64,000 nucleotides of DNA from Agromyces rhizosphaerae (lineage in GTDB: Bacteria > Actinomycetota > Actinomycetes > Actinomycetales > Microbacteriaceae), in NCBI RefSeq assembly GCF_027925245.1, contig NZ_BSDP01000001.1, forward strand, positions 372,001-436,000, given 5' to 3'. The notes beneath the pieces were generated by a model. The model saw only the letters and a program-made list of their open reading frames with translations. It ran no database searches and was not told the origin of the DNA. This document shows, one piece after another, positions 3,675 to 17,820 of this stretch. Positions within the stretch are counted from its first letter, which is position 1; the number at the start of each line of letters is the position of its first letter. Both the position numbers and the translations under genes were made by a program.

Positions 3675-5762
3675 GTGACCAGTCCTCCCCCCGGCGCGCC
3701 CTCCGCGCCGCCGCGACCCGCGCGCGCCGAGAACCCCAACTGGGTCTCGGAGATCGACGGCCTCCGGGGCATCGCGCTCACCCTCGTCGTCGTGTTCCAC
3801 CTCTTCGGCCAGGGTCGCGTCTCCGGCGGCGTCGACGTCTTCCTCTTCGTCTCCGGCTTCCTGCTCACCGCGTCGCTCGCGCGCGCCGCGGCCCGCGGGG
3901 AACGGATCGGGCCGGCCCGTCGGTACGGCCGGATGCTCCTGCGCCTCACGCCCGCGGCCCTGCTGGTCCTCGTCGCCACTGGTGGAATCGTGCTGCTCGT
4001 GCTCCCGGAGCACACCTGGATCCAGAACGGCACCGAGCTCGTGGCATCCGCCCTGTTCCTCGAGAACCAGGAGCTGATCCGCTCGCAGCTCGCGTACGGG
4101 GCGGCGGGGCCGGGGACCAGCCCGTTCCAGCACTTCTGGTCGCTGTCCATCCAGGGCCAGTACTTCCTCCTCTGGCCCCTCGCCGTCGCGCTCGTCGCGC
4201 TCCTCGTGCGCCCGCGGAGCGCCCGCCGCGCGCTTGCGCTCGTGACCGGCGCGCTCGCGCTCGCCTCGCTCGCCTGGGCGGTCTGGCTGAACGGCCGCGA
4301 CGCGGACGTGGCGTACTTCGACAGCGCCGCCAGGTTCTGGGAGTTCGCGGCGGGCGGCCTCCTCGCGATCGCCTACCGCAGGCGACCCGCGCTCCGCGAC
4401 GGGCTCCGGGTCGTCCTCGGATGGACCGGCCTCGCGCTCGTGCTCGCGTCCGGAATCCTGATCGACGGCGCAGCGAGCTATCCGGGCCTTCCCGCGCTGG
4501 TGCCGATCGGCGGCGCCGCGCTCGTCATCCTGGCGTCGGGCGGCCCGACGCGGCTCGGTGCCGACCGCGTGCTCGAGCTCCGGCCGGTACGATTCGTCGC
4601 GCGGATCTCGTATCCGCTCTACCTCTGGCACTGGCCGATCCTCATCGCGTACCTCGCGGTCCGCGAACGCGACGCGGTCGGTCCCGTCGGTGCGGCGGGG
4701 GTGCTGCTGCTCGCCGTCCTCCTCGCCGTCGCGACCCAGCGCCTGCTCGTGGAGCCGATCCTCGCCCGGCGCGCGGTGCTCGGCCCGCGCCGGTCGCTCC
4801 TGCTCCCGGTCGGCGCGGCGACGGTCGTCGTGCTCACCGCGTCGCTCGGGGTCGGCGCGCAGGCCGCGGAGCGCGACCGGGCGATCGCGGCGGCGGAGGC
4901 GTTGGCGTCGGGCCGCGCGGCCTGCCTCGGCGCGGCATCCCTCGACCCCGAGCTCGACCCGTGCGTGAACCCCGACCTCGAGGACGTGCTCGTGCCCGCG
5001 ATCGCCGGGCTCCCGGCAGACGACGACAACCGGATCGACTGCTGGGCGCGCGACGACACGGCCGAGCTGAAGATCTGCACCGTGGGCGCGGACGAGCCCG
5101 GCCGACGGCTGCTCGCGATCGGCGACTCGCACAACAACACCCTCCTCGGCGTCTACGAGCGCATCGCGGAGACGTACGGCTGGTCGATCGACGTCGCCGG
5201 GCACTCGGGGTGCTACCTGACGACCGCGCCGCAGCGGAAGGCATCGGAGAAGGCGGCCGAGAACTGCGCCGGATGGGTCGATGCGGCAACGGCGCACATC
5301 GCAGCCACGGAGTACGACGCGATCATCGTCACGCAGTCGAGGCGGGCGCGGCTCGACGACGCCGTGCCCGAGGACCAGATCGGCGAGGTCCGGGTCGACG
5401 GCATGGTGGAGGCCTGGTCGCACCGGCTCGACCCGGCCACCCCCGTGATCGCGATCGAGGACAACCCGATCTTCGCGCGCCAGGTGATCGCGTGCGTCGA
5501 GGAGCACGGCCTCGGTGCCGACCGGGAGTGCGCCCTCCCGCGAGCCGAGGCGCTCCCCGACGCGGGCATTGCCGACGCCGCCGACGACGACCCGAACGCC
5601 CACGTGATCGACCTCACCGACTACATGTGCGGCCCCGACACGTGCTCCCCGGTCGTCGGGAACGTGATCCTCACCCGTGACGGGCGCCACCTGACGGCGA
5701 CGTTCGCGCACACGCTCACGCCCTACCTCGGCCCGCGGCTCCGGGAGATCGTCGAGGGCTGA
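3675..5762 (+). CDS. Acyltransferase-3 (OafA/YrhL) with C-terminal SGNH domain
   Basis: A 695-residue protein made of two parts. Residues about 25-400 form a membrane acyltransferase-3 domain with EIDGLRG, GGVDVFLFVSGFLL, FWSLSIQGQYFLLWP and ISYPLYLWHWPIL. Residues about 470-690 form a presumably extracytoplasmic SGNH esterase-like domain, with GDSHNN at about 483 and the paired D669-x-x-H672 in DGRHLT. Such proteins transfer acetyl or other acyl groups to cell-surface polysaccharides or peptidoglycan. The GTG start has no strong ribosome-binding site. It follows the glycosyltransferase-like gene by 40 bp and probably modifies the same polymer, which is inference. Confidence 0.9.
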   Translation: MTSPPPGAPSAPPRPARAENPNWVSEIDGLRGIALTLVVVFHLFGQGRVSGGVDVFLFVSGFLLTASLARAAARGERIGPARRYGRMLLRLTPAALLVLVATGGIVLLVLPEHTWIQNGTELVASALFLENQELIRSQLAYGAAGPGTSPFQHFWSLSIQGQYFLLWPLAVALVALLVRPRSARRALALVTGALALASLAWAVWLNGRDADVAYFDSAARFWEFAAGGLLAIAYRRRPALRDGLRVVLGWTGLALVLASGILIDGAASYPGLPALVPIGGAALVILASGGPTRLGADRVLELRPVRFVARISYPLYLWHWPILIAYLAVRERDAVGPVGAAGVLLLAVLLAVATQRLLVEPILARRAVLGPRRSLLLPVGAATVVVLTASLGVGAQAAERDRAIAAAEALASGRAACLGAASLDPELDPCVNPDLEDVLVPAIAGLPADDDNRIDCWARDDTAELKICTVGADEPGRRLLAIGDSHNNTLLGVYERIAETYGWSIDVAGHSGCYLTTAPQRKASEKAAENCAGWVDAATAHIAATEYDAIIVTQSRRARLDDAVPEDQIGEVRVDGMVEAWSHRLDPATPVIAIEDNPIFARQVIACVEEHGLGADRECALPRAEALPDAGIADAADDDPNAHVIDLTDYMCGPDTCSPVVGNVILTRDGRHLTATFAHTLTPYLGPRLREIVEG

Positions 5763-16467: not shown

Positions 16468-16600
16468 GCACTTTTCAGGAGCTGCCGAGCGGGCGGCGGC
16501 GGCAACATGCGCGGACTCCGCTCGCGCGCACGAGGCGTGCGTGTTCGGGCCAGATTCCGGCGGATTGTTGAGCCGGCCGCCCGGCTGCTCCTGAAAAGCG
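16468..16600. repeat. Inverted-repeat element A, next to the AbiEi-DUF559 gene
   Basis: A 133-bp element that starts with CTTTTCAGGAGC (16471-16482) and ends with its exact inverse GCTCCTGAAAAG (16587-16598). The arms can be extended imperfectly to about 28 bp. The same ends recur in element B at 17686-17820, but the interiors differ. It lies between accA3 and the stop of the AbiEi-DUF559 gene. It looks like a small palindromic mobile or recombination element; no matching named family was recognised. Confidence 0.75.
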
Positions 16601-16632
16601 ACGAAGGACCGGACGTCTGCGGGGTGGGCGCG

Positions 16633-17568
16633 TCAGTGGGCGGATCGGCGCAACCGCGCAGCCGCGAGGGCACCGATGACTCGCTGGACGACGCTGTCCG
16701 GGTCGGCGAGCACCTCGCGGGCCGGCACCCGGAGCGTCGGATAGCCGCGAGCGAGCAACTCCCCGTCTCGACGACGATCCTCCTCGAACGCAACGAGCGA
16801 ACTGTGGAACGCGCGCCCGTCGACCTCGACCACGAGCAGGCGGGCGACGAGGAAGTCGACGCGACCGACCCCGTCGATCCGCACCTGCTGCCGGTACTCG
16901 AGCCCGACGTCCCGGAGCATCAGGCCGAAGTGCGACTCCGCACCTGACCCGGCGGCATCGGTCAGCAGCTCCGACAGCTCCCGATGCCATCCGCCGTGTC
17001 CGGCGAGCAGGCCCCGAGCATCGTCCAGCCCGACCAGCCGCTCGGCGACGGCCGACTCGAACGTCGCAAGGACGTCTGCCCGCGGCTGACAGGTCGCCAC
17101 CTGGTCGAGCGCGGAACGGATGTCGGTACGCCACGAACTTGCATCCTCCCCTCGCTCGGCCACCGGGCCCTCGCACCAATGCAGCACCAGCAGCTCCTCG
17201 TGCCGGTCGGAGTGGATTCCATCCTCACCCGCGAGTCGCAGCGGCGCATCACTGCGGTCGGTCAGCGGATGCCGCGTGCGCAGCCGAGCCGCGTTGGCCG
17301 GGAGCGCGATGTGCACGGCGGCGTCCGACCCGGCCCACATGCCGAGGCTCGCCGCCGCGCTGACGCAACCCAGCCGCCCGCCGACGCGGACGGCGACGAC
17401 GGCCGCCCGCTCGGCCGACGTGCTCGCGTAGTGGCCCCGGCGGACGCGCCGCAGGACCCCGGCGCGCACGGCCATGGTGAGCAGCCCGGGCGAGTGGCCC
17501 GCGTCGAGCAGCTGCCGGCGCGTGGCGATGCCACCGAGTCCGTCCACTGTGCTCACGACCCGCTCCAT
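16633..17568 (-). CDS. AbiEi-type winged-helix plus DUF559 (Vsr-like) nuclease fold protein
   Basis: A 311-residue protein. Residues 1-50 match the AbiEi antitoxin winged-helix start (DGLGGIATRRQLLDAG, then GVLRRVRRGHYAS). Residues about 205-305 form a DUF559/MTES_1575 domain of the PD-(D/E)xK nuclease fold: E211 in GAESHF, D238 in GRVDFL, E248-V-D250 in VVEVDGRAFH, then RRDGELLARGYPTLRV. The last catalytic lysine is replaced by D250, as is usual in this family. No AbiEii toxin gene lies nearby, so it is an orphan. The ATG at 17568 is uncertain; in-frame starts exist upstream. Elements A and B lie 32 bp beyond its stop and 117 bp before its start. Biological role unknown. Confidence 0.75.
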   Translation of the reverse strand: MERVVSTVDGLGGIATRRQLLDAGHSPGLLTMAVRAGVLRRVRRGHYASTSAERAAVVAVRVGGRLGCVSAAASLGMWAGSDAAVHIALPANAARLRTRHPLTDRSDAPLRLAGEDGIHSDRHEELLVLHWCEGPVAERGEDASSWRTDIRSALDQVATCQPRADVLATFESAVAERLVGLDDARGLLAGHGGWHRELSELLTDAAGSGAESHFGLMLRDVGLEYRQQVRIDGVGRVDFLVARLLVVEVDGRAFHSSLVAFEEDRRRDGELLARGYPTLRVPAREVLADPDSVVQRVIGALAAARLRRSAH

Positions 17569-17685
17569 GCCGACAGGTTCGTGCTGCACCCCACTCCGAT
17601 CGGCACGGACGTCCCTTGCGCGCGCCACCAGAGCCGACAGGCATCCTGTGGAGGATACATTCCGCGGCATCCGCCCCTCGACCCT

Positions 17686-17820
17686 GCACTTTTCAGGAGG
17701 TCGCCAGCGCCCGGCGCAGCCGATCGCCAACGATCGACCTACTGGACAAGGGATCTGCGCGGGCCCGCTGAGGCACGCAAGGTATCGCCATGGCCCTGCC
17801 AGGCGCTCCTGAAAAGCGCC
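17686..17820. repeat. Inverted-repeat element B, next to the AbiEi-DUF559 gene
   Basis: A 135-bp element with the same ends as element A: CTTTTCAGGAG at 17689-17699 and GCTCCTGAAAAG at 17805-17816, in inverted orientation. The right end also forms its own small hairpin, GGCGCT and AGCGCC. Length and ends match element A while the interior does not. It lies between the AbiEi-DUF559 start and the lpdA stop. Confidence 0.75.

Follow-up and report, generated by a model that had tools for sequence, protein, structure and literature searches.

We found that, in the 64-kb stretch of DNA analyzed here (the window), a gene for a predicted nuclease lies between two elements with common inverted ends, that copies of these elements are dispersed through the genome, and that many relatives of the gene in other species are bracketed by repeats as well. 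The reading that we favor, and hold to be probable, is that the nuclease is paired with its own dispersed double-stranded sites, in a REPtron-like layout built from unrelated parts, and that the sites would have spread by cut-stimulated copying while the gene stayed put.

A predicted nuclease gene between two elements with common ends

The source genome of the window (G000) comprises 3.6 Mb in a single contig. The nuclease gene occupies positions 16633..17568 on the minus strand and encodes 311 amino acids from the ATG at 17568, which is probably the start, since the frame stays open to 17730. Residues 1 to 198 (16975..17568, minus strand) form an AbiEi antitoxin-like part, with winged-helix matches within residues 1 to 51, and residues 204 to 311 (16636..16959, minus strand) form a Vsr/I-Bth0305I-type nuclease domain, as judged by domain matches, alignment, and predicted fold. 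Pfam gave AbiEi_4 and DUF559 above their curated cutoffs and MTES_1575 just below its cutoff, with no known transposase or recombinase domain among the matches, and PADLOC returned an AbiEi match. Within the nuclease domain, E211, D238, E248, H255, and D264 are invariant in 63 aligned sequences, and a confident structural model combines the AbiEi part with a Vsr-type nuclease fold. With a modeled EDxHD/Vsr fold and conserved acidic and histidine active-site residues, the protein is a predicted nuclease, in agreement with the preliminary description of this DNA, which had called the gene an AbiEi winged helix fused to a Vsr-like DUF559 fold. That description had also seen no toxin partner. By coordinates, the gaps to the two neighbors, putatively accA3 and lpdA (names given in the preliminary description), are only 193 and 295 bp and leave no AbiEii (DUF1814) partner in the same operon.

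Element 1 (16471..16598, no strand assigned) stands between convergent genes and 3' of the nuclease gene, and element 2 (17689..17816, no strand assigned) lies on its 5' side, approximately 120 bp upstream of the probable start. Each has two inverted CTTTTCAGGAG ends and measures 128 bp from motif to motif; the lengths of 133 and 135 bp given earlier reflect loosely drawn edges. A motif search placed the ends of element 1 at 16471..16481 (plus strand) and 16588..16598 (minus strand) and those of element 2 at 17689..17699 (plus strand) and 17806..17816 (minus strand), which confirms the reported orientation of right, left, right, left. These four exact copies are the sole matches to CTTTTCAGGAG in the 64 kb at up to one mismatch, against an expectation of 0.18, and four copies were matched in none of 100 shuffles of the window. 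The two elements share no common interior, so motif search and interior comparison together uphold the original picture of two elements with common ends and different interiors flanking one gene.

A dispersed family of 128-bp elements

The preliminary description did not see that the end motif belongs to a genome-wide family, the members of which are dispersed elements mostly far from the nuclease gene. The G000 genome contains 26 exact copies of CTTTTCAGGAG (reversed control, 0) and 18 matches to the paired pattern (reversed control, 0), including two that overlap each other at a single complex locus; two further paired copies appeared once mismatches were allowed. At G000:C1:1649770-1649933 (L014, 1381-1544), two left and two right end motifs form two overlapping 131-bp pairs. 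The family is defined by inverted CTTTTCAGGA ends, and we detected the exact type in 4 of 60 genomes of the genus (18 in G000, 6 in G015, 11 in G030, and 14 in G056). The same four genomes were recovered with up to three mismatches at a length of 128 bp. A family-wide search of 398 genomes for the exact 128-bp type returned only G000 itself, G015, G030, and G056 being outside that draw.

Considering the four genomes together, the 49 distinct elements measured 128 bp (33 elements), 127 bp (5), 129 bp (4), 137 to 139 bp (5), or 131 bp (2), which places 42 of 49 at 127 to 129 bp; the two 131-bp elements are an overlapping pair. The elements of 137 to 139 bp (L042, L052, L056, L064, and L065) form a second length class, about 10 bp over the usual 128 bp. 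Interiors of random element pairs were 39% identical. At ortholog places the ends were more conserved than the interiors, with mean identities of 97% and 77% across 19 pairs, although these are the pairs with interior identity above 0.5 among 27 ortholog places (8 were dropped), and the comparison is biased toward conserved ends because elements were located through their ends. Inside the 128-bp elements, a weak GCGGATNCTGCGC-like motif recurs near positions 34, 64, and 94, in steps of roughly 30 bp.

In G015, G030, and G056, pairs of 128-bp elements also bracket ordinary genes, some with a second gene. These ordinary genes encode GNAT, Band_7/flotillin, luciferase-like monooxygenase, CysZ-like, exo/endonuclease/phosphatase, and ATP-dependent ligase proteins. 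Bracketing that is special to DUF559 genes, read literally, is therefore out, and the link between nuclease and repeats rests on the cross-species and spacing tests.

Repeats bracket relatives of the nuclease across genera

At E ≤ 1e-15, relatives of the nuclease were detected in 48 of the 60 genomes of the genus (89 matches in total). Of 63 other genera searched, 46 had a match. Among eight named loci encoding relatives of the gene, seven are from Agromyces and one is from Salinibacterium, and we take the genus of the 60 genomes to be Agromyces. We surveyed the flanks of 118 loci, comprising 88 of the 89 Agromyces matches (one was dropped for its short flank) and the 30 best loci of 30 other genera. 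A repeat common to the left and right flanks exceeded the 95% value of a cross-genus null at 69 of 88 Agromyces loci and 20 of 30 loci in other genera, and the 99% value at 35 of 88 and 12 of 30, respectively. Among 184 control genes of similar length, taken from G030 and the window only, 16 exceeded the 95% value, a rate above the nominal 5%, and 3 exceeded the 99% value. An earlier null, which put 0 of 11 and 0 of 19 loci in two Agromyces sets above its 95% value, was unusable for those sets because homologous flanks had entered it.

A flank repeat with a CAGGA or CATGAG core exceeded the 95% null at 50 of 118 loci and at none of the 184 controls; these cores, and the spacing bins used below, were set after viewing the same flanks. 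Inverted CAGGA pairs were present on at least one side of 56 of 118 loci and on both sides of 34 (controls, 3 and 0 of 184), and the spacing was equal on the two sides in 33 of those 34. In the CATGAG type, inverted pairs stand exactly 44 bp apart, start to start, in several species, and four genomes (G018, G052, G055, and G021) carry the exact motif on both flanks of the nuclease gene, while two (G029 and G032) carry it on one flank. The survey also included 29 loci not above the 95% null and 62 without an inverted CAGGA pair on either side; at these 62, perhaps the cores differ or the elements have been lost. The preliminary description had set a randomly scattered motif against one linked to DUF559 genes. 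We found the motif to be scattered, but linked to such genes.

Flank inspection revealed an inverted element on both sides of all 11 close orthologs in the genus, with an end motif specific to the lineage: CTTTTCAGGA in G000, G056, and G015; TTCTCAGGA in G012, G026, G022, and G023; TTTTCAGGAGGGGG in G059; ACAACTCAGGAAC in G042 and G034; and GAATTCAGGA in G048. Some ends in G056, G015, G022, and G023 have mismatches. The 11 genomes also have dispersed nine-base motifs, with 44 to 88 copies of TTYTCAGGA or AAYTCAGGA in each, and at least 40 copies occur in 3 of the 49 other genomes of the genus (Fisher, 1e-9, with the cutoff set after seeing the counts). All 22 pairs listed for G026 are exactly 54 bp, and in 19 of 20 examined elements a third copy of the motif (up to one mismatch) stands exactly 31 bp outside on one side. 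These 20 elements comprise 4 convergent, 14 tandem, and 2 divergent placements, and a preference for gene 3' ends was not seen among them. At G010:C2:180176-180279, five direct copies of AATTCAGGA spaced 23 to 26 bp apart are followed by one inverted copy.

Dispersal extends to other genera. We took TCCTGCATTTC from the flanks of nuclease loci in G088, G107, and G068 and tallied its copies across 63 genomes from other genera. The predicted dispersal was borne out, with 79, 40, and 21 copies, respectively. Unpredicted copies were found in G117 (28) and G135 (8), the remaining 58 genomes had three or fewer each, and the reversed control gave at most one per genome. In G135, the copies bracket a nuclease gene. 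In G117, there was no nuclease match at E ≤ 1e-25 among the candidates scored (up to 39 per genome). Dispersed GAAATGCAGGA..TCCTGCATTTC pairs occur in that genome, with 14 forward and 14 reverse motif copies (e.g., L331).

Element spacing follows the protein phylogeny

We assigned 105 of the 115 inverted pairs in the flanks to spacing classes of 36 to 38, 43 to 45, 55 to 58, 67 to 69, 75 to 77, and 107 to 108 bp; the ten pairs outside these classes have spacings of 17, 100, 110, 111, 120, 133, 137, or 138 bp. Although discrete, the classes do not fall at even steps of 10.5 bp, and we did not press a strict helical-phase model. When the 61 proteins with a class were placed on a maximum-likelihood tree, in which row L235 sits on a very long branch, spacing class changed 10 times, compared to a mean of 35 in shuffled data, with none of 200 shuffles as low. 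In 11 genomes, the paralogs differ in spacing class, in keeping with their protein clades. Shuffling among the paralogs within those 11 genomes gave a mean of 18.4 changes and a minimum of 11, again with none of 200 as low as 10, which removes species relatedness as the cause of the match between spacing and clade.

Linkage could explain part of this co-inheritance, since a gene and its adjoining elements are inherited together even without recognition and the shuffle leaves linkage in. Dispersed copies in G008 speak against linkage alone: this genome has two nuclease genes, one bracketed at an inner spacing of 44 bp and the other at 55 bp, and has unlinked copies of about both spacings elsewhere. 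Bracketing of relatives far above the control level, together with spacing that tracks the protein phylogeny, supports one part of an earlier suggestion, namely that the protein and the repeat ends belong together.

Element-free sites and recent copies

Seven of the 11 close orthologs lie between accA3 and lpdA, and three lie beside one of these genes, which indicates that the gene is old at this place; the ortholog in G023 has only a partial, weaker accA3-like match, in another arrangement. G030 lacks the gene and both elements, and the two neighbors end approximately 40 bp apart. This genome has no nuclease relative at E ≤ 1e-15, and its 11 exact elements lie elsewhere. Presence and absence of elements were also seen between sister genomes, six comparisons giving an element-free site and a seventh a shortened element. 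A comparison of such empty sites had been proposed in the preliminary description; none of the seven comparisons shows a clean target duplication. Where G000 has its element at 1857632 (G000:1857632), G015 carries a shortened, altered version with TCCTGAGAA ends (L074, about 4777-4820).

Copying is seen in a few genomes only. In G088, 14 of 22 other examined copies are 81 to 90% identical in their interiors to a copy beside the nuclease gene, and the similarity runs on into the flanks. This suggests amplification in recent times, to which larger tandem duplications may have added. Similar elements stand in runs at G088:C15:44213-44921 and G088:C4:18098-18840, approximately 260 to 390 bp apart, possibly as larger tandem duplications. 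The flanking copies in G008 (L212) are nearly identical. In G000 and G026, copying is not visible because the copies have unrelated interiors. G043 harbors 61-bp near-identical palindromic repeats (TTTTCAGGACCACA..) with conserved interiors at C1:243446, 581640, 938447, and 1691633 (L351 and L352), a family that looks like a young MITE; the one nuclease locus examined in that genome (L298) is bracketed by a different, 44-spacing type.

A classical mobile element, with the two elements as transposon ends, the gene as transposase or cargo, and the dispersed copies as miniature transposons or solo ends, would account for equal-spacing bracketing on both sides, for presence and absence between sisters, and for the similar copies in G088, the nearly identical ones in G008, and the conserved 61-bp ones in G043. 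We nevertheless judge this explanation unlikely. The positions of the orthologs, seven between the same two genes and three beside one, imply that the gene rarely moves, and the same positions lend no support to the earlier proposal of a self-contained cassette inserted at this site. In addition, the bracketing elements have unrelated interiors both in the window and in G088, clean target duplications are absent from the sister comparisons, and the Pfam matches include no known transposase or recombinase domain.

Placement and structure of the 128-bp elements

Using a simple gene caller, we classified the placement of 67 elements from the four genomes as convergent (28), tandem (31), divergent (6), or uncallable (2). 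Convergent and divergent regions account for 13% and 39% of sampled intergenic bases, compared to 28 of 65 and 6 of 65 elements. With overlaps of up to 40 bp allowed, none of these 67 elements, all of the 128-bp type, falls within a called gene, and the median distance to gene 3' ends is 21 bp in G000 and 34 bp in its relatives.

This placement bears on the possibility that the nuclease is a defense or toxin-like effector and the repeats are operators, with the AbiEi part repressing its own gene and the dispersed sites acting as decoys or self-marks. One study states that AbiEi antitoxins autoregulate via inverted repeats in their promoter (PMC7319586), and the PADLOC match to AbiEi and the position of element 2, upstream of the probable start, are in keeping with such a role. 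The second element lies at the 3' end of the gene, however, and the dispersed elements avoid the divergent regions in which promoters would be expected; we consider operators unlikely, and a more doubtful explanation than a mobile element.

Single-sequence folds suggested a long hairpin, cruciform, or RNA, but among 47 elements of the 128-bp type, 50 nested position pairs showed no complementarity beyond the common consensus (largest |z| 2.5, with a few values of 2.0 to 2.5 in both directions). The hairpin ends of the preliminary description are not supported by this result. Small local hairpins may exist in the elements, as single position pairs score weakly as such in 18 sequences (best z 3.5 among thousands of pairs). 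No Rfam family reached its cutoff for the elements. It is very unlikely that the elements are transcription terminators or structured RNAs whose place beside the nuclease is incidental: proximity to gene 3' ends, the convergent share, and the few weak local pairs would suit that role, while the nested-pair and Rfam results, and spacing that tracks nuclease clades, count against it. Least credible of all is that some other chromosomal DNA-binding protein uses the repeats as its sites and nuclease genes merely adjoin them. This would fit persistence of repeats in G030 and G117, ends more conserved than interiors, and bracketed ordinary genes, but not the paralogs of 11 genomes whose differing spacing classes fit their clades or the lack of two-sided pairs at all 184 control genes, two arguments that linkage weakens.

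Proposed mechanism and comparison with known systems

Our preferred explanation remains a nuclease paired with its own dispersed sites. It has to contend with the observation that repeats can persist without a detected nuclease, as in G030 and G117, which counts against it. Bracketing, dispersal, and fixed spacing come directly from the sequence; binding, cutting, and copying by the nuclease are our inference. The gene would encode a sequence-specific nuclease that recognizes the inverted ends through its AbiEi-type winged helix and has the two flanking elements as its cognate sites. Copies of the site pair are dispersed between genes, the 128-bp group preferentially just downstream of genes, and each protein clade has its own version, in which a CAGGA (or CATGAG) core is joined to outer bases particular to the clade and the spacing is fixed. 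Such fixed spacing would be expected if at least two subunits occupy one piece of DNA in a set arrangement. At these sites, the EDxHD/Vsr-type domain probably makes a nick or a cut, and a homing- or RAYT-like process of cut-stimulated copying probably spreads the site pairs and keeps them alike, with the gene staying in place.

A broader proposal, toward which we lean by a little, is that AbiEi-DUF559 proteins form a large unrecognized class of nucleases throughout Microbacteriaceae, possibly extending beyond this family, and that each is accompanied by a family of inverted, double-stranded sites of its own, dispersed and of fixed spacing. Clade would set motif and spacing, and the nuclease would copy, homogenize, or use the sites. 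Such a class would be the non-HUH equivalent of RAYT/REPIN systems, with an independent origin from a DNA-binding module of the antitoxin type and a nuclease of the homing-endonuclease type. The family is common in Microbacteriaceae, where its members are named AbiEi-family antitoxin, DUF559 protein, or very-short-patch-repair endonuclease. If the proposal is true, the family acquires a defined substrate and a part in genome shaping, and the REP/RAYT layout has evolved more than once, from unrelated nucleases. Clade-specific spacing would give direct access to the way in which the protein reads DNA, and the natural variants in motif and spacing would supply many related site-specific DNA-binding nucleases for comparison.

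In the literature searched, whose scope left aside preprints and subscription journals, we found no paper joining DUF559 with repeats; we rate this kind of system as new, and an earlier description in those sources is possible. ERIC- and MITE-type repeats are short and intergenic, with inverted ends. The elements described here resemble them in these respects, but their length is fixed even though copies in G000 and G026 do not share interiors; the common interior of MITE and IS copies has a parallel in the G088 copies described above. Unlike the AbiEi of AbiE type IV toxin-antitoxin systems, the protein has no adjoining partner gene, carries a fused nuclease domain, and is accompanied by genome-wide repeats. 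Compared to the Vsr very short patch repair endonuclease (1cw0, 1vsr), it has an extra DNA-binding part and cognate repeats. I-Bth0305I is an EDxHD homing endonuclease (PDB 3r3p; PMC3943268); relative to that enzyme, the system here differs in its AbiEi-type recognition part, in having no intron and many genomic sites instead of one, and in the bracketing of the gene by sites.

The closest likeness is to the REPtron, described as a TnpA-REP/RAYT gene (PMC8266576), mostly single copy per type, with its own REP, BIME, or REPIN repeats. As in that account, a nuclease gene here has its own repeat family, dispersed between genes and often in inverted pairs, with a repeat type for each gene group. 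The defining protein feature of the REPtron, a Y1 HUH transposase, is absent from the locus, where the domains are AbiEi_4 and MTES_1575/DUF559 and the predicted fold is an AbiEi winged helix joined to a Vsr-fold nuclease, and we therefore do not file the system as a REPtron. Hairpin-forming palindromes, another REPtron trait, gave no signal among nested pairs of the 128-bp type, though weak local hairpins may be present. The end motifs also differ from GTAG-tagged palindromes, and its spacing is fixed within each protein clade while the interiors are free in most genomes.
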